DNA from: a virus
Length of the DNA stretch: 21,387 nt
Reading direction: 5' to 3' (one strand)
Virus record (IMG/VR): IMGVR_UViG_3300044825_003337
Location: 1-21,387 of that record
Shown piece by piece: positions 2,982-12,025 of the stretch (position 1 is its first letter; each line of letters begins with the position of its first letter). Under the pieces are notes generated by a model. That model saw only the letters and a program-made list of their open reading frames with translations. It had not been told where the DNA came from and did not search any database. The translations under genes were made by a program, and so were the position numbers.

Positions 2982-3446
2982 ATGGCGACTGGTGACATCA
3001 AATGGTTCGCTCAGGCCTTGCATGACCTGGGAAACAAGATCCACGACCTCGACGGCGACACGATCAAGCTGGGCGTCATCACGTCCGCTGTAACGCCGGC
3101 GCTGTCGACCGCTGCGCCGCACTGGGGCGGGACCGGCACCACGAATTTGGCCAGTAATCAGGTGGCGACTACCGGCACGTCCTACACCGGCCCGATCACG
3201 CTGGCGAACAAGTCCTGGTCGATCGTCAGCAACGTGCCCACGTTCCGCGCCGACGAGGTCACCCTGGCACAGGACGCCAGCGGATTCACGAACGGCCGCT
3301 GGGGCGTGATCTACAACGACTCCGATGCGAATAAACGCTGCCTCGGATTCGTCGACATGGGCTCGGACCGCTCTCTCGTAGCCGGCCCCGTCGTGTTTGC
3401 CTGGTCGGGGGCGGGCAACGACATCTTGACGCTGACCCAGTCGTGA
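2982..3446 (+). CDS. Putative virion structural protein
   Basis: A 154-aa protein with no signal peptide or membrane segment. It opens with a short helical segment (IKWFAQALHDLGNKIHDLDG) and then becomes Thr/Ser/Gly-rich and beta-like. It ends in a pattern (WGVIYNDSDANKRCLGFVDM, then V...VFAW and ILTLTQS) that I recognise from small structural proteins of tailed phages, in which a conserved R/WxxVIYND is followed by a GY/FxDxG turn. The exact role, such as head decoration or tail appendage, cannot be told. It begins nine bases after the large terminase stop and overlaps the next gene by four bases, so it is in the same operon. Lambda has no gene here. The structural call is family resemblance from memory, not a match I could test. 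Confidence 0.55.
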   Translation: MATGDIKWFAQALHDLGNKIHDLDGDTIKLGVITSAVTPALSTAAPHWGGTGTTNLASNQVATTGTSYTGPITLANKSWSIVSNVPTFRADEVTLAQDASGFTNGRWGVIYNDSDANKRCLGFVDMGSDRSLVAGPVVFAWSGAGNDILTLTQS

Positions 3447-3874
3447 AAAAACTCTACCTGGTCGAGTTCACCGAGACCGTCGTGGAGGACGGCGTCCTGC
3501 GGCCGGTGTTGCCGTGGGACGGGATGGTGGCAAATGTGCACTGCGTCTATCCGCGCGCCGAAGGCGGCCGGTACCAGGAGTCGCACGTGATGGCGGCCAT
3601 CGAGGCCGATGCCAAGGTACACGCCGAGATCGCGCGGGCGGCCGGCGTGACGGAACTTCCGGACGACACCGCCGGAAAGCTCAAGGACGTGCCGGCCGGC
3701 AAGCGAATCGAGGTCGACCAAAAGATCGCGGCGCTCAAGGTCGATGCAAGAGACGTCACGCCGGACACGCCAGTCAAGGTCGTGCTTGATCGCCTGGGCG
3801 AAAAGCTCAAGCCCGGATTCGACGTCGCACGGCTCCAGCCGGCGGTGCTCGACGCGGCAAGGGAACTGCGCTGA
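3443..3874 (+). CDS. Hypothetical phage protein
   Basis: 143 aa, unrecognised. The start is a GTG inside the GTGA overlap with the previous stop, and the stop overlaps the next ATG as TGATG, so translation is probably coupled on both sides. Residues 1-40 look beta-stranded (KKLYLVEFTETVVEDGVLRP). The rest is mixed, with charged helices around residues 50-67 and 90-100 and a C-terminal helix. There are no Cys pairs, signal or membrane segments. Its place between two probable virion proteins suggests a structural or assembly role, but nothing in the sequence shows one. Codon use and high G+C match the neighbours, and the overlaps on both sides make it very likely to be a real gene. Confidence 0.6.
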   Translation: MKKLYLVEFTETVVEDGVLRPVLPWDGMVANVHCVYPRAEGGRYQESHVMAAIEADAKVHAEIARAAGVTELPDDTAGKLKDVPAGKRIEVDQKIAALKVDARDVTPDTPVKVVLDRLGEKLKPGFDVARLQPAVLDAARELR

Positions 3875-5040
3875 TGGCCTTCCTCACCGACACCTTTACC
3901 GAAGCTAGCGATACCACGCTAGCGTCGCACACGTCGGATTCTGGGCACACGTGGACGATATATGCGGGCGGGTTGACCGTCATCGGGTCCGAAGATCGTC
4001 TTCGCGGTGATTCGGCGGGGGGGAGCGGCGTCGCAATAAGCAGCGCGTCTCCGGCATCGGATCAATACGATGTCGAGGGCGTTGTTAGACGCACCACCAG
4101 CGACGCCAATGCGGTGAGCGGCATCTATGCCCGGTTTAACACCGTTGGGCCGGACCTGATCCAGTTGTACATGTCGCATCCGGACTCCACGCTGACCATG
4201 CAGGAGGTCCAGGACAATGCCGTGGTGGAGTCGTCCACGTATGCGAAATCGTGGTCGGCCGATACAAATTACACAATTAAGCTTGAAGTTAGAAACGGGT
4301 CAAACGGGGTCAAGGGGTATCTTGACGGCGTCCAACGTGTGCAAATCACGTGGTCCGGCGACAGTACGCCCGGCAATGTTGCCGTGCGATCGCGCCTGTA
4401 TGGCCGCATTGATAACCTGACGGCGACGGACTACAGCGCCGGCGTGACGCTCGACTGCACCGTCGGCAACGCAGTCGCCGCAGGATCCGCGGCCAGCATC
4501 AGCGCTGGCACCACCATCAATGCCGGCATCGGCAATGCCGTGGCGGCCGGCGCCACGGCCAACGTCAGCGCCGGAACCACCATCAACGTCAGCGTCGGCA
4601 ATGCCGTGGCGGCGGGCGTGCAGGCCTCGATTACAAGCGGCACGACGCTGGATTGCACCGTCGGTAACGCGGTCGCCGCGGGCGGCACGGCCAACATCAG
4701 CGCCGGCACCACCATCAACGCCGGCGTGGGCAATGCCGTGGCGGCCGGCGTGCAGGCCTCGCTCACCAGCGGCGTCACGCTCGAATGCACTGTCGGCAAC
4801 GCCGTGGCCGCCGGCGTGCAGGCCGGCATCAGCGTCGGCAGCGGCACCGTCACTATTGCTTGCGCCGTTGGCAATGCGGTGGCCGACGGCGTCGACGTGG
4901 ACATCTGGTCGGCAGACATTCCCCTGCCGCTCACAGGCCGCATCGGCAGCAGTGGACTGGACGACACCCGCCGTATCGGTGGCAGCACGCTGAGTGGATC
5001 GCGTCGCATCGGGAGCAGCACGTTGAGGAAGCCAGCATGA
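3874..5040 (+). CDS. Repeat-containing virion protein with LamG-like N terminus
   Basis: 388 aa in three parts. Residues 1-185 look like a concanavalin/LamG-type beta-sandwich: the opening LTDTFTEASDTTLASH, then ARFNT, YTIKLEVRNG, VKGYLDGVQ and RIDNLTATD are typical of such phage and carbohydrate-binding folds. Residues 189-344 are seven tandem units of about 22 residues centred on GNAVAAG. Residues 355-384 carry three units of an 11-residue motif (GRIGSSGL, RRIGGSTL, RRIGSSTL). A carbohydrate-binding virion or appendage role is inference. The DNA for the first domain is much lower in G+C (24/60 in the line from 4261) than the repeat region, which points to mosaic origin. It is coupled to both neighbours (TGATG at 3872, ATGA at 5037). 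Confidence 0.6.
   Translation: MAFLTDTFTEASDTTLASHTSDSGHTWTIYAGGLTVIGSEDRLRGDSAGGSGVAISSASPASDQYDVEGVVRRTTSDANAVSGIYARFNTVGPDLIQLYMSHPDSTLTMQEVQDNAVVESSTYAKSWSADTNYTIKLEVRNGSNGVKGYLDGVQRVQITWSGDSTPGNVAVRSRLYGRIDNLTATDYSAGVTLDCTVGNAVAAGSAASISAGTTINAGIGNAVAAGATANVSAGTTINVSVGNAVAAGVQASITSGTTLDCTVGNAVAAGGTANISAGTTINAGVGNAVAAGVQASLTSGVTLECTVGNAVAAGVQAGISVGSGTVTIACAVGNAVADGVDVDIWSADIPLPLTGRIGSSGLDDTRRIGGSTLSGSRRIGSSTLRKPA
4438..4905 (+). repeat. Seven tandem ~66-bp coding repeats (GNAVAAG units)
   Basis: Six in-frame units of exactly 66 bases start at 4438, 4504, 4570, 4636, 4702 and 4768. A seventh, diverged 72-base unit runs 4834-4905. Each encodes 22 residues with a TTIN or TLDC opening, an invariant GNAVA core and a short Ala/Ser-rich end. 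Units 1, 4 and 6 share the LDC/LEC type, while 2, 3 and 5 share the IN type, so the array seems to have grown by duplication of pairs or triplets. Confidence 0.9.
4936..5025 (+). repeat. Short RRIGSSTL coding repeat
   Basis: Three units of period 33 bases (11 residues) at the end of the repeat protein: GRIGSSGLDDT, RRIGGSTLSGS and RRIGSSTL. The first two are full length and the third is cut to eight residues before the RKPA terminus. The segment is basic, unlike the neutral GNAVAAG array before it. Confidence 0.75.
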
Positions 5041-5591
5041 ACCTCACCGAGCTCTACGTCGGCGACAGCCTGCAGTTCGAAACCTCCGTGCCCGAGTACC
5101 CGGCCAGCGGCGGCTACACGCTCAAGTACCGCCTGGTGCCGCGCGCGGGCGGATCCGCCTACGTGATCACCGCCAGCGCCAGCGGCGATGCCTACGCCGT
5201 CAACGTCGCCGCGGCCACCACCGCGGCCTGGGTCGCCGGCGAGTACTCCTGGCACGCGTACATCGAGATCTCCGGTGCGCGGTACACCGTGGGTTCCGGG
5301 CAGCTCACGCTCAAGCCGGATCCGTCGGCGATCGCCGGCGGGACCGACACGCGCACGCAGGCCGAGATCGCGCTGGCGCAGGCCAAGGCCGCCTACGCCA
5401 GCATGAGCGCCAACCCGAGCCGCAAGGCGTACACGATCGGCGATGTCTCGGTCACGTTCAACAGCCCGGCCGAGATCCTGCGGACCATCAACTACTGGGA
5501 AATCCAGGTCCAGCGCGAGCAGCACGCCGACGCGATCCGCAAGGGCCTGAAAAATCCCAACCGCGTCTATGTGAGGTCGCTCCGTGGATAA
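5037..5591 (+). CDS. Head-tail joining protein, gpW-like C terminus with extra N-terminal domain
   Basis: 184 aa. The start is the ATG in the ATGA overlap with the previous gene. Residues 1-100 look like an immunoglobulin-like beta domain (LYVGDSLQFETSVPEYPASG, WHAYIEISGARYTVGSGQLT). Residues about 105-184 follow the pattern of lambda gpW: a helix (AEIALAQAKAAYASMSANPS), a beta hairpin (KAYTIGDVSVTF), a helix (AEILRTINYWEIQVQREQ) and a basic end (NPNRVYVRSLRG). Lambda gpW is only 68 aa and lies between the terminase and portal genes, exactly the place of this gene. gpW plugs the portal after packaging and receives the tail connector. The gpW call is from pattern and position. The N-terminal half has no lambda counterpart and could be a surface or adaptor domain. 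Confidence 0.65.
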   Translation: MNLTELYVGDSLQFETSVPEYPASGGYTLKYRLVPRAGGSAYVITASASGDAYAVNVAAATTAAWVAGEYSWHAYIEISGARYTVGSGQLTLKPDPSAIAGGTDTRTQAEIALAQAKAAYASMSANPSRKAYTIGDVSVTFNSPAEILRTINYWEIQVQREQHADAIRKGLKNPNRVYVRSLRG

Positions 5592-7323
5592 GCGCTGGTG
5601 TCCTCGCACGGCTCAGTGGCTCGAGCTGGCCCCGGCGGCCTCGGTCTCACCAGTCAAGCGCTGGCAACCGCCGCCGCAGGCTGAACGGACGATGCAGTCA
5701 GCGCACGACCCGGCGCAAGAGCGCGCGCGATTCGACGTGCGGTCCATCCCCATGGGCCCCGCTTCGAAGCGGGCCGTGCGGATGTACCACAACGCCCGTG
5801 CGACGCGCGCCACCGCCGGCTGGAACGCAGCCCAGACCAGCGCGGATGCCGAGCTCGACAGCTCGCTGACGGCGCTGCGCAACCGCTCGCGCGCGCTGGT
5901 GCGCGATGCGGCGTACGCCAAGCGCGCGAAGATCATCGTCGTCAACAACGTAATCGGCGCGGGCGTGGGCATGCAAGCGCAGGTGCGCAACAACCGCAAG
6001 CGGTTGCTGACGAAGGTCAACGCGGGCATCGAAGCCGCATTCCAGGAGTGGGGCGAGGCCGATCACTGCCACACCGGCGGAAAGCTGCACTTCGCAGATC
6101 TGGAGCGGCAGGCCAAGGGCCAGATCTTCGAGGCGGGCGAGGTCATCTTCCGCAAGCACTACCGCCGCTTCGGATCTTCGCGCGTGCCGTTTGCGCTCGA
6201 GCTGATCGAGGGCGAGCGCCTGGCCGACACCCTGACCCGGTCGCCGGTGAGCGGCGCGGACGTGCGCATGGGTGTCGAGGTCGACGAGTTTCAGCGGCCC
6301 GTCGCGTACTGGCTGCGGGAGGGCCATCCCGGAGATCTGCGCCGGACTCGTGCGGGCGCCGAAAAGCTGGTGCGCGTGCCGGCCGACCAGATCTGGCACC
6401 TGTACATCGTCGACCGCTGGCCACAGTCGCGCGGCGAGCCGTGGCTGCACGCCACCGCGCGCCGGTTGAACGACATGGACGGCTATTCCGAGGCCGAGAT
6501 CATCGCGGCGCGCAACAGCGCCACGCAGATGGGATTCGTCGAGACCTCCATCGAAGCAGTCTCCAGCGTCCGGAGCATGGTCGACGAGACCGACGAGACT
6601 GACGGTGAGCAGCGCATCAATTTCGAGCCGGGCGTCATCGAATACCTCGCGCCTGGTCAGCAGTTCAAGGAACACAACCCCAGCCGGCCCAACACCGCCA
6701 TCGATCCGTTCCTGCGCTACATGCTGCGCGAGGTCGCGGCCGGGATCGGGGTGTCGTACGAATCGCTCTCGCGCGACTACAGCCAGAGCAACTACAGCAG
6801 CTCGCGCCTGGCGCTGCTCGATGACCGAGACCTGTGGCGGACCCTGCAGCTGTGGTGGATTCGCAATTTCCGGCTGCCGCTGCATCGCGAGTGGCTGAAA
6901 GCCGCCGTGTATGGCGGTGCGGTCGAGGGCCTGAGCGTCGCGGACTACCTGAGCGATCCCAAGCGGTACGAGTGCGTCAAGTTCAAGCCCAGGGGCTGGA
7001 GCTGGATCGACCCGGCGAAGGAAGTGGACTCGCAGATGGCCTCCGTGCGCGCGGGCTTCACCACCGTGTCGGACGTCATCGCCCGCACCGGCGAGGGCCG
7101 CGACCTCGAGGACGTAATCGAGGAGCGCAAGCGCGAACTGGAAATGATGCGCGAGGCCGGCCTGCAGTTCGATACCGATCCGGCCGCGGCCGCCCCCGCG
7201 AAACCCGCCGCGCCGAAGGACCCCGCCGCCGATCCCGACGAGTCCGCCGATTCGGACGAGTCCGGGGATGGCGAATCCGAAGACGACGCCCCGGCCGCCG
7301 GCCGCGTCATCCCGATGAGGTAA
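5584..7323 (+). CDS. Phage portal protein, lambda gpB family
   Basis: 579 aa; forms the dodecameric ring at the head vertex through which DNA enters and leaves. Lambda gpB is 533 aa. Family hallmarks are the early RATAGWNAAQTSADAEL region, RSRALVRDAAYAKRAKIIVV, a central beta region (GEVIFRKHYRRF, FALELIEGERL) and the diagnostic RDYSQSNYSSSR at residues 397-408. The C terminus from about residue 530 is Ala/Pro/Asp/Glu-rich and probably disordered. The start is a GTG at 5584 with GAGG at 5573-5576, overlapping the gpW-like gene by eight bases. A later start would remove the roughly 35-residue unusual N terminus, so the exact start is slightly uncertain. Confidence 0.93.
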   Translation: MDKRWCPRTAQWLELAPAASVSPVKRWQPPPQAERTMQSAHDPAQERARFDVRSIPMGPASKRAVRMYHNARATRATAGWNAAQTSADAELDSSLTALRNRSRALVRDAAYAKRAKIIVVNNVIGAGVGMQAQVRNNRKRLLTKVNAGIEAAFQEWGEADHCHTGGKLHFADLERQAKGQIFEAGEVIFRKHYRRFGSSRVPFALELIEGERLADTLTRSPVSGADVRMGVEVDEFQRPVAYWLREGHPGDLRRTRAGAEKLVRVPADQIWHLYIVDRWPQSRGEPWLHATARRLNDMDGYSEAEIIAARNSATQMGFVETSIEAVSSVRSMVDETDETDGEQRINFEPGVIEYLAPGQQFKEHNPSRPNTAIDPFLRYMLREVAAGIGVSYESLSRDYSQSNYSSSRLALLDDRDLWRTLQLWWIRNFRLPLHREWLKAAVYGGAVEGLSVADYLSDPKRYECVKFKPRGWSWIDPAKEVDSQMASVRAGFTTVSDVIARTGEGRDLEDVIEERKRELEMMREAGLQFDTDPAAAAPAKPAAPKDPAADPDESADSDESGDGESEDDAPAAGRVIPMR

Positions 7324-7328
7324 CCCCA

Positions 7329-9365
7329 ATGCTCTATCGCACCCACACGATCGACCAGCAGCGCGCAGAGAGCCAGGAGAGCGGCGACTACGTCGTCGAG
7401 ATGGCGTTTGCGTCCGAAGAACCGTACGAGCGCTGGTGGGGCGTCGAGATCCTCGACTGTTCCGAGTCCGCCGTGCGGCTGGACCGGCTCAACGATGGCG
7501 CGAGCCTGCTCTACAACCACAACTGGAACGACCTGCGCGGCGTGCACGTCGCCGAGTCTGTGCGCTGCGATCCTGACCGTGTCATGCGCGGCAAGGCCCG
7601 CATCACGTCGGCCACGCAGACCGGCCGCGACACCATCGCCCTGGTCAAGAGCGGCGTGCTGACTAAGACCTCCGTCGGCTACGAGATCCACAAGGTCATT
7701 GAGCAGACCACCGTCAAGGGCAAGACGGTCGAGCGCGAGCTCGATGGCGTTGCTTTCGAGGGAATCCGCACCCGCGCCCACGAAACCGCCCGCGGCGATA
7801 TCGCCGCGTTCCGCCGACTGCTCGACGAACGCTTCGGCGCGTTCGAGCGCGGCTCCGACGATCCGACGATTTACCGCGTCGTCGACTGGGAGCCCATCGA
7901 GAACAGTCTCGTCACCGTCCCCGCCGACGCGTCCGTCGGCGTGGGCCGCACGCACGAACCCCTATCGCAGCAAACGCAGTCCCACCCGCCGCAAGGCACC
8001 TCCACAGGAGTGAAGACCATGACCGACACGGTCACCCCCAACGCCCCGGCGGGCGCAACCGCCGATCAGACCACGTCGCTGTCCGCCGATAACGTCCGCA
8101 AGCTCGAGCGCGCCCGCTGCGAGCAGCTCGCCCGTCTGGGCGAGCAGAACGGCGTCGACGCCGGTGTAATCCGCGGCTGGGTCGAGTCCGGCAAGACCGT
8201 CGACCAGGCCGCCGAAGACGTGATCGGTATTCTCGAAAAGCGCGCCAAGGACAATCAAGTCATCGGCAACCTCGGCATGTCGAAGCGCGAGACCGAGCAG
8301 TACTCGATCCTGCGCGCCATCGGCGCGTCGTTGGACCAGAACTGGAAGAAGGCCGGCCTCGAATTCGCGGCACACGAGGAAATCCAGAAGCGCCTGAACC
8401 GCCCCCCGCAGTCGAACAACGCGTTCTACGTCCCCTTCGACGTGCAGGCCCGCAGCATGGACATGAGCGATGCCGCCATCGAGCGCGAAGTCGCGCGGCG
8501 CGTGGCGCGTGCCACCGGCCGTCGTGACCTCACTGTAGCCAGCGGCAGCGGCGGCGGCTACATGGTCGCCACGACGAACCAGGGCTTCATCGAGCTCTAC
8601 CGCAACGCCACCGTGCTGTTCGCCCTGGGCGCGCGTCGCCTGGGCGGCCTCACCGACAGCATCACCGTGCCTCGCCAGAGCAGCGGCGCCACGGCCTATT
8701 GGCTCTCTACCGAAGCCACGGCCATCACCGAATCCGCGCTGGTGCTCGGCCAGATGGCGCTGTCGCCCAAGAACGTCGGCGCCTACACCGAAATCAGCCG
8801 CCAGCTCACCCTGCAAGCCAATCCCGACATCGAAACGCTGGTCATGACCGACCTGGCGCTGCAGGTGGGCATCGACGTCGATGCCAAGGGCCTGAACGGC
8901 TCCGGCTCGTCGGGACAGCCCACCGGCCTGCTGAACACCTCCGGCATCGGCTCGGTCACCGGCTCCTCGATCGCGCTGGCCGGGATCATCGAGTTCCAGT
9001 CCGACGTGTTCGGCGCCAACGTGAGCCTCGGCAACGCCGGGTATCTCACCACCGGCGCTGTCGCCGGGCTGCTGATGGCCCGGGCCCGGATCTCCAGCAC
9101 CGACTCGCGCGTGCTGTGGGAAGGCGCCCTGGAGCGCGGCGAAATGGTCGGCAAGATGGCCATGGCCTCGAACCAGGTGCCGTCCGCGACGCTGATCTTC
9201 GGCGACTTCTCCGAGATCGTCGTGGCCGAGTGGGGCGTGCTCGAGGTGGACGTCAACCCCTATGCCGGATTCACCGCCGGCATCGTGGGGGTGCGCGCCA
9301 TGGCGAGCGTCGACGTGGGTGTGCGCCACCCCGGCGCGTTCTCCGTCGCCACCTCGGTGTCCTGA
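7329..9365 (+). CDS. Prohead protease fused to HK97-type major capsid protein
   Basis: 678 aa in one uninterrupted frame, starting at the ATG five bases after the portal stop (GAGG at 7317-7320). Residues 1-200 are a prohead serine protease of the U35/S78 type: H64 in LLYNHNW and S115 in LTKTSVGYE are the probable catalytic His and Ser. Residues 200-235 are a Gln/Pro/Thr linker. Residues about 235-400 are a charged helical delta (scaffold) region, and about 400-678 are the HK97 capsid fold (GGGYMVATTNQGFIELYRNA, then SGQPTGLLNT and GYLTTGA). The mature shell part, about 278 aa, is close to HK97's 282. Many phages encode protease and capsid separately. An internal in-frame start at 8019 with a strong ribosome site could give free capsid protein of 448 aa. 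Confidence 0.9.
   Translation: MLYRTHTIDQQRAESQESGDYVVEMAFASEEPYERWWGVEILDCSESAVRLDRLNDGASLLYNHNWNDLRGVHVAESVRCDPDRVMRGKARITSATQTGRDTIALVKSGVLTKTSVGYEIHKVIEQTTVKGKTVERELDGVAFEGIRTRAHETARGDIAAFRRLLDERFGAFERGSDDPTIYRVVDWEPIENSLVTVPADASVGVGRTHEPLSQQTQSHPPQGTSTGVKTMTDTVTPNAPAGATADQTTSLSADNVRKLERARCEQLARLGEQNGVDAGVIRGWVESGKTVDQAAEDVIGILEKRAKDNQVIGNLGMSKRETEQYSILRAIGASLDQNWKKAGLEFAAHEEIQKRLNRPPQSNNAFYVPFDVQARSMDMSDAAIEREVARRVARATGRRDLTVASGSGGGYMVATTNQGFIELYRNATVLFALGARRLGGLTDSITVPRQSSGATAYWLSTEATAITESALVLGQMALSPKNVGAYTEISRQLTLQANPDIETLVMTDLALQVGIDVDAKGLNGSGSSGQPTGLLNTSGIGSVTGSSIALAGIIEFQSDVFGANVSLGNAGYLTTGAVAGLLMARARISSTDSRVLWEGALERGEMVGKMAMASNQVPSATLIFGDFSEIVVAEWGVLEVDVNPYAGFTAGIVGVRAMASVDVGVRHPGAFSVATSVS
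8006..8021 (+). promoter_or_regulatory. Internal in-frame ribosome binding site and ATG for the capsid protein
   Basis: AGGAG at 8006-8010 lies eight bases before an ATG at 8019, which is codon 231 of the fused protease-capsid frame and sits exactly in the linker between the two domains. Translation from here would give a 448-aa capsid precursor (8019-9365) with its own delta region. No stop separates it from the upstream protease. This resembles lambda C/Nu3, where a second product starts inside the protease frame. Confidence 0.6.
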
Positions 9366-10387: not shown

Positions 10388-12025
10388 GTGACTATTCGAC
10401 TGACCAACGCGATCAAGCTGGACGGAACGGATCGTGCTGTTGGAAGTACGCACGCATTCGGTCGCGAGAGAGAAGAGCGTCTTCTGGCGGAGGGTGTTGC
10501 GCAGCGTGTTCAGCACGAGCTGCGCGGTGTCAAGCCGAATGCACGAGCGCGCAATACGTTCGTGCTGTTCGGCGATTCCATCACCGAGATGCACAAGGGG
10601 TTCACGACGCTCACTGTGCCGTCAGAAATCAGTCGATCCGGCGCCGTTGCCACCATCGCGCGCGGAACAGTGGTAGGCCTGAGTCCAAGACAACCGATCC
10701 GTGTGTACAAGACCCGCGCAAAGGGTTGGGCGGGTACCAAGCAACTGGAGAACATGCAGTCAGGATCCGCCGAGTTCTATTTCAATGATCTCGGAGTCGA
10801 TCCTGAGCCCACTCCGTACGAGCCGCACACTCAAGCGGCCTTCTTCGTACCTCAATGGAACACTGACCGAGGATGGTTTTGGTGGGCCAATGCGATGAGC
10901 GGGTGGCGCGCAGAAGTGCTGAACGTCAGTGGCGTCGGTGGCGACCGGTCGTACAACCTGCTGCAAAGAATTGCTGACATCGAGATGGGCGTTCTGCCAT
11001 ACGAGCCGGCGTACTGCACAGTGATGATCGGAGTGAATGACCTCAATGGCGATCTGACGTCCGCGCAGGTCATTGCTAATCTCGAGCAGATCTACCGAAT
11101 CCTGTTGGACGCCAATATCGGCGTCGTCGCCATGACGGTGTTGCCGGTGACGACTGGGCACTTCAAGGCGGGCAACGAGACGCACTCGCAGGCCATCATG
11201 GCCGTCAATGAGTGGATTCGCCGGACGGCGACGCGCACTCCTGGGATGTATTTGTGCGACTCGTGCGCTGCAGTCGTTGACCCCACTGCGGCAACGTTCA
11301 CGACGCTGTCGGGAATGCTGGCGTCCGACGGCATTCACCTGACGGCAAAAGGTGCGCGAGCAGTGGGCGCGGAACTGGCGAAGCAGCTGCAATGGATTTG
11401 CCCGCCCAACGGATCCTTGGTTTCCTCGAATCGGGACTCCTATGGAGCGTCAAGCACGAATTCGCAGCGGATCGACAACCCACTATTCACGGGTTCGGGG
11501 GGCAGCGCGGGAACCGGCATGAGCGGGACAATCGCCGCCTCCTGGCAGGTCGAGCGGCTGGGCGGTACGCCAACAGGCGTGTGTTCGGTTGTCGCACGTA
11601 CCGTTGTTGATGATGGCGATGCCATTGGAAACAACCAGCGCGTGGTCATCACCGCCGGCGCAAACAACGATCTGGTTGCGGTGCGTCAGAGCACTAATCT
11701 GATCTCTCGCGTAAGCGAGGGGGATCTGGTGGTGTTCCAGTGCGCGGTAAAGCTGTCGTCATGCTCCAACGTCAAGAGCCTGCGAGTACTGGTGCAGGCA
11801 AGCGACGGAAGCTTGTTCCCCGCCGGAGAAGCTCTAAAGAACAGCGACACCACGTTCGATCAAGCGGACTTCGCCGGCGTGTTCAAGACACCCCCGTTCC
11901 GGATCCCGCCGGGAATGACGTCAATGACGCCTCGGGTGTATGTGACGTTTTCGGGATCTGGCGGTGCAACGTTGGACGTGGGTCGGGCGTCGCTCATCAA
12001 AGCGGACTGGCGCGAAATCTACTGA
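10388..12025 (+). CDS. SGNH/GDSL-family hydrolase with head-protein-like N terminus
   Basis: 545 aa. Residues 55-325 are an SGNH hydrolase: block I FGDSIT with nucleophile S64, block II Gly at about 182 (NVSGVGGD), block III N217 in MIGVNDLN, and block V D314/H317 in SDGIHLTAKG. All four catalytic positions are present, so esterase or deacetylase activity on a sugar or lipid ester is likely. Residues 1-45 resemble the small protein encoded at 9713. Residues about 340-545 are a beta-rich domain, possibly carbohydrate-binding. The start is a GTG at 10388 preceded by GGGAGGG. G+C is lower than in neighbours (34/60 in the line from 10981 against 43/60 at 13201), which suggests a later gain. Acting on acetylated host surface polysaccharide is inference. 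Confidence 0.85.
   Translation: MTIRLTNAIKLDGTDRAVGSTHAFGREREERLLAEGVAQRVQHELRGVKPNARARNTFVLFGDSITEMHKGFTTLTVPSEISRSGAVATIARGTVVGLSPRQPIRVYKTRAKGWAGTKQLENMQSGSAEFYFNDLGVDPEPTPYEPHTQAAFFVPQWNTDRGWFWWANAMSGWRAEVLNVSGVGGDRSYNLLQRIADIEMGVLPYEPAYCTVMIGVNDLNGDLTSAQVIANLEQIYRILLDANIGVVAMTVLPVTTGHFKAGNETHSQAIMAVNEWIRRTATRTPGMYLCDSCAAVVDPTAATFTTLSGMLASDGIHLTAKGARAVGAELAKQLQWICPPNGSLVSSNRDSYGASSTNSQRIDNPLFTGSGGSAGTGMSGTIAASWQVERLGGTPTGVCSVVARTVVDDGDAIGNNQRVVITAGANNDLVAVRQSTNLISRVSEGDLVVFQCAVKLSSCSNVKSLRVLVQASDGSLFPAGEALKNSDTTFDQADFAGVFKTPPFRIPPGMTSMTPRVYVTFSGSGGATLDVGRASLIKADWREIY

Follow-up and report, generated by a model that had tools for sequence, protein, structure and literature searches.

How an active protease is brought into the prohead at the right dose is an open question of phage assembly, and it arises in a particular form where protease and major capsid protein share a single gene. 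Such a gene lies in the window, i.e. the whole stretch of 21,387 nucleotides from IMG/VR virus record IMGVR_UViG_3300044825_003337 that was analysed here. Reading of the sequence shows a frame on the plus strand (7329-9365) that is open throughout its 678 codons, from the ATG at 7329-7331 to the TGA at 9363-9365, and the encoded fusion of 678 amino acids is assigned to PHROG 617/4523, 'major head (and protease) protein'. Codon 231 of this frame is a further in-frame ATG (8019-8021), preceded at a spacing of 8 nt by the Shine-Dalgarno (SD) motif AGGAG (8006-8010), and it opens a nested ORF of 448 amino acids (8019-9365). Judged from sequence and structural model, the product of this nested ORF is predicted to be a free capsid precursor, which carries a delta region but is devoid of the protease. 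An earlier, sequence-only reading of this DNA had claimed a frame open through both domains with this internal site, and all of its coordinates proved accurate. The question is whether the gene specifies one product or two.

The domain organization of the protein is that of an S78-HK97 capsid fusion, since Peptidase_S78 (PF04586, residues 58-128, E 2e-5) and Phage_capsid (PF05065, residues 409-674, E 4e-32) both exceed their Pfam gathering scores within one frame. Together with the family alignment and the secondary structure of the model, the former match delimits an S78 prohead protease domain at residues ~12-205 (7362-7943, plus strand, as are the other parts of this gene given below). In this domain, His64 (7518-7520) and Ser115 (7671-7673) are invariant in 28 of 28 aligned family members, and by analogy with the S78 family both residues are presumably catalytic. 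In an AlphaFold model of the 678-aa protein, which was based on a 28-row family alignment and reached a mean pLDDT of 74, the protease is followed by a disordered linker (residues 211-252; 7959-8084) with pLDDT below 50, which is also unalignable across the family. The helices of residues 253-395 (8085-8513) occupy a position matching the HK97 delta domain, suggesting a delta- or scaffold-like role. A flexible segment of low pLDDT (residues 397-415; 8517-8573) is the predicted maturation cleavage zone and leads into the HK97-fold capsid domain (residues 409-674; 8553-9350). The best Foldseek match is the R4C capsid 8gta (E 1.9e-17), followed by GTA and HK97 proheads, and the 8gta chain begins approximately at the residue aligned to Gly409 of the window protein. 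Because the linker separates the folded protease from the helical region, codon 231 lies in mid-linker, just where the earlier reading had located the internal AGGAG-ATG.

Other fusion families fit the protein less well. No ClpP match was obtained in Pfam and NCBIfam profile searches, so the window protein does not belong to the ClpP-type fusions (NF045540), and against NF045541 (scaf_prot_MCP2) it scores 116.6 bits, below the cut-off of 525, with the best stretch confined to residues 174-328. The well-known S78-HK97 fusions of R4C, VP882 and ep3 (L162, L178 and L181) likewise fall far below this cut-off, and NF045541 thus appears to model S78 fused to another capsid type, thereby missing the present family.

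With terminase subunits and a lambda-type portal encoded 5' of the fusion gene, the head module is that of an ordinary tailed phage. The genes for large terminase and portal are usually close neighbours; in the window, several genes are inserted between them (2982-5591), one of which matches PHROG 644, a family of unknown function, while another (3874-5040) encodes a 388-aa protein with tandem repeats of ~66 bp (22 aa; TVGNAVAAG...) that matches no Pfam or PHROG family. Among the head-tail genes, 10388-12025 encodes a protein of 545 aa that resembles GDSL lipases (PF13472, E 1.6e-21), possibly a virion-associated esterase.

An SD motif precedes each of the two starts of the fusion gene. The SD of the upstream start, GAGGT (7317-7321), which was identified by pattern scan, overlaps the end of the portal gene (stop at 7321-7323), and the position of the fusion start directly behind this stop may couple fusion synthesis to portal translation. 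On the coding strand of the window, patterns of an SD core followed by N4-9-ATG mark mostly true gene starts (e.g. before 125, 7329, 12766 and 17722), and the site at 8019 resembles these genuine starts. With regard to strength, the description of the internal ribosome site as strong is fair as such, though the site is unexceptional, as its duplex energy (-6.9 kcal/mol) equals that of the fusion's own SD (-6.9 kcal/mol). The notion that the nested start outperforms the upstream one was not borne out: across the family, the median SD energy of the upstream start (-6.4) does not differ significantly from that of the internal one (-6.6; p = 0.07), and accessibility in the window is reversed, the local structure (-25 to +20) at 8019 amounting to -11.3 kcal/mol, near the gene average of -13.5, vs -5.9 kcal/mol at the more open fusion start 7329. 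A minor amount of fusion next to free capsid protein in bulk is plausible, but sequence alone gives no product ratio.

Whether the nested start is maintained was addressed with 134 loci from IMG/VR and GTDB genomes that carry both domains in one frame, this frame being open in all 134, and that form 73 clusters at <60% identity. These homologues were gathered by similarity to full fusions, so that relatives of this particular capsid that are encoded by split genes may be underrepresented; loci L059-L081 were mostly excluded, as they encode the S78 protease on its own and yielded no capsid homologue. Each in-frame ATG was scored by its anti-SD duplex energy, a good SD being defined as <= -5 kcal/mol, and starts were counted from 0 to 60 codons past the protease end. 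A nested SD-ATG was present in 64 of 73 clusters (123 of 134 fused loci), at a median of 19 codons past the protease end, as opposed to 10.2 +/- 2.7 clusters expected from segments of the same size elsewhere in the same genes. According to the sequence-only reading, a lack of AGGAG and ATG conservation among fusion-bearing relatives would have refuted it, and this outcome did not occur. The excess persists at 50% identity (23 of 27 clusters vs 4.6 expected) and at 45% (10 of 12 vs 2.0), whereas single-linkage clustering at 40% leaves just four clusters (2 of 4 vs 1.1), too few to be informative. Moreover, in 65 of 68 clusters the RNA flanking the nested start shows weaker folding than the average of the gene (mean -5.1 vs -11.4 kcal/mol). 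Of the deviating clusters, three lack the ATG and carry TTG or GTG codons behind SDs of -11.8, -8.2 and -7.9, and another six of the 73 have an in-frame ATG at the linker spot without a strong SD. The latter condition is found in the named phages S-CBS1, S-CBS3, S-LBS1 and MQ-4, of which the three cyanophages S-CBS1, S-CBS3 and S-LBS1 feature A/C-rich leaders ahead of the linker ATG. A clear-cut example of the common form is R4C, with GGAGG-5 nt-ATG at codon 189. Thus, the gene shows a nested-start organization, i.e. an in-frame start with a ribosome-binding site after the protease that is kept in relatives, and sequence comparison indicates that the start in the linker is maintained by selection.

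One might object that selection acts on the peptide rather than on the RNA, charged linker residues (Lys-Glu before Met), for instance as a self-cleavage site, mimicking an SD. Synonymous codon shuffles, which retain protein and codon usage, indeed still yield 30.6 +/- 3.5 of 73 clusters, since the stretch ahead of the Met is rich in Lys/Glu in many members; part of the signal consequently reflects peptide composition, but a large excess is left, as the observed 64 lies above all 100 shuffles (maximum 40). Moreover, the internal SD is spread evenly over the three codon phases (22/22/21 across S78-fusion clusters) and encodes differing residues accordingly (QEH, KGA, TGV and others), which argues for selection on RNA instead of protein, since no peptide motif accounts for such an SD. 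Phase spread and shuffles together strongly disfavour a constraint by a peptide motif, an account that is now very improbable. Hardly better placed is the idea that the SD-ATG is a fossil, which once served as the start of an independent capsid gene and has been unused since loss of a stop codon fused the two genes. Split relatives do start their capsid gene at the corresponding place, yet the linker has diverged past alignment while the signal stays far above the synonymous-shuffle level, and an unused motif of five bases would be expected to decay across such divergence; this origin without present function is therefore judged equally improbable.

Slightly more credit, though still little, is due to the simplest alternative, according to which only the full-length fusion is made, each shell subunit begins with a protease domain that is removed at maturation, and the linker ATG is fortuitous. 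Such a product would be compatible with the sequence, and 17 of 17 records of phages with S78-capsid fusions show a single CDS without a nested gene. On the other hand, full-length synthesis alone fails to explain why an SD-ATG is kept, in any codon phase, in a linker that lacks conservation at the amino acid level, and why it recurs in the great majority of S78 clusters and in every ClpP-type cluster examined (64/73 and 15/15). In addition, by our own estimate, ~400 protease domains in a T=7 prohead would mean heavy crowding, an argument that is not decisive.

The ClpP-type fusions (NF045540) constitute, as far as sequence can tell, an independent replicate of the nested start, given their different protease and PF25209 capsid. 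Here, the nested SD-ATG occurs 13-55 codons after the protease in 15 of 15 clusters, as compared with an expectation of 2.7 and a synonymous-shuffle mean of 7.6 (maximum 13). The SD phases are uneven in this class (9/4/2), and the argument for nucleotide-level selection is weaker for it taken alone. Candidate nested starts were also seen in actinophage fusions, i.e. Maggie ATG160 (-5.8 kcal/mol), RRH1 ATG274 (-5.7) and CapnMurica ATG242 (-10.2); these are single cases, and RRH1 has other ATGs scoring similarly, so that they serve as leads only. A search of 369 genomes with NF045541 revealed no third fusion class and returned only known ClpP-type genes.

Taken together, programmed dual initiation, whereby one gene gives rise to a protease-capsid fusion and a free capsid precursor that co-assemble, is regarded as the probable explanation. 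In this scheme, ribosomes starting at 7329 would produce the protease-delta-capsid fusion, while those starting at 8019 would yield the 448-residue delta-capsid precursor lacking the protease. Both forms would co-assemble via their common capsid and delta parts, and the protease would enter the prohead already tethered to some of the shell subunits. Because the linker contains no stop and leaves the fusion as the only possible source of protease, there are good grounds in the sequence to expect that the protease enters the shell in covalently attached form, as a minor subunit. Subsequently, the protease would cut the delta regions as well as its own tether, and the mature capsid protein would then start near residue 400. 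The use of both starts and the ratio of products are predictions of this scheme, as are co-assembly and self-release, which draw on analogy with HK97 biology. Conservation of His64 and Ser115 implies a need for the fusion, just as that of the nested start does for the short form. The mature N-terminus cannot tell which start was used, as in R4C the nested start is codon 189, whereas the deposited capsid chain 8gta begins only at codon 362, a distance of 173 codons. Extended to tailed phages at large, the proposal would be that protease-capsid fusions, including those of unrelated protease and capsid classes, generally rely on dual initiation, with an unannotated conserved nested start supplying free capsid precursor and the fusion providing dosed, tethered packaging of the protease; this generalization is favoured, albeit with less confidence than the scheme for the window gene.

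If dual initiation holds true, two start sites on one mRNA would set the protease-to-shell ratio, the same solution would recur with at least two unrelated proteases, and many database entries would misplace the start of the bulk capsid precursor. The idea would be testable in cultured phages, among which the R4C capsid is already solved, and it would provide a natural design for loading enzymes into HK97-type shells.

The fusion as such is of a known kind. A tblastn search with the window protein returned 70 phage records at ~26-31% identity, 53 of them with a query coverage of 80% or more. One record bears the name 'major capsid protein and protease', another that of 'major capsid protein and peptidase U35', and fusion families exist in NCBIfam and PHROG. 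S78 protease-capsid fusions are established for VP882, phiHAP-1, R4C and PPpW-3; in published reports, protease-capsid fusions are termed unusual for Arthrobacter clusters AM, AU and AN (PMC5513430) and noted for Rhodobacter RcC phages (PMC8601537) and prophage clusters LC2/LC3 (PMC11409702). A nested start is annotated in none of the 17 S78-capsid fusion phage records, each of which gives a single CDS, and the open-access literature searched, as far as its text was accessible, describes only the fusion itself. Within this literature and these 17 records, the new element is hence the nested start inside the protease-capsid fusion gene.

Among known systems, the S78 fusion phages (VP882, phiHAP-1, R4C, RcCronus, S-CBS1/3, PPpW-3 and ep3) share the architecture and are homologous over both domains, and the majority of those examined also have a nested SD-ATG, although the window protein is only ~26-31% identical to them. 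Some cyanophage and roseophage fusions (S-CBS3, S-CBS1 and CRP-811; L173, L176 and L180) carry an extra N-terminal stretch ahead of the protease, which in CRP-811 matches a TUDOR domain (Hva1_TUDOR). The 'tripartite' capsid gene of Gifsy-2 and the other ClpP-type fusions likewise combine protease, scaffold-like region and capsid in one frame, but differ by a ClpP-like protease and a PF25209/gpT-like capsid, while the actinophage fusions (Arthrobacter AM/AU/AN, Rhodococcus RRH1) are also fused genes with little or no sequence similarity to the window protein. Separate genes are found at L065, where the ATG of the capsid gene overlaps the stop of the S78 protease gene, and at L079, where the capsid gene starts directly behind it; a capsid start at the protease end suggests that fusion occurred by stop loss with the capsid start kept, and since the capsid is of another type, these loci offer an analogy and not a direct ancestor. 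Their pairing (L065: 2860-5095; L079: 2914-5083) of an S78 protease related to that of the window with a different capsid type indicates a modular exchange of protease and capsid types. HK97 gp4/gp5 shares the S78 protease, the delta-capsid precursor and the HK97 fold with the window gene; HK97, however, encodes protease and capsid in two genes, and its protease is packaged along with the capsid protein without being covalently linked to it. In lambda C/Nu3, the protease extends the N-terminus of an abundant assembly protein, which is in addition produced by itself from a nested in-frame gene, and the same arrangement is known from Mu I/Z and herpesvirus UL26/UL26.5. By homology, the window gene stands outside the lambda C/Nu3 family, as its protease is of the S78 type and its nested product a capsid protein. 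The comparison with lambda C/Nu3 drawn in the sequence-only reading is nevertheless apt, both having a nested in-frame start after the protease, with the difference that the lambda product is a removable scaffold, whereas that of the window gene would be the shell protein with its own delta region.
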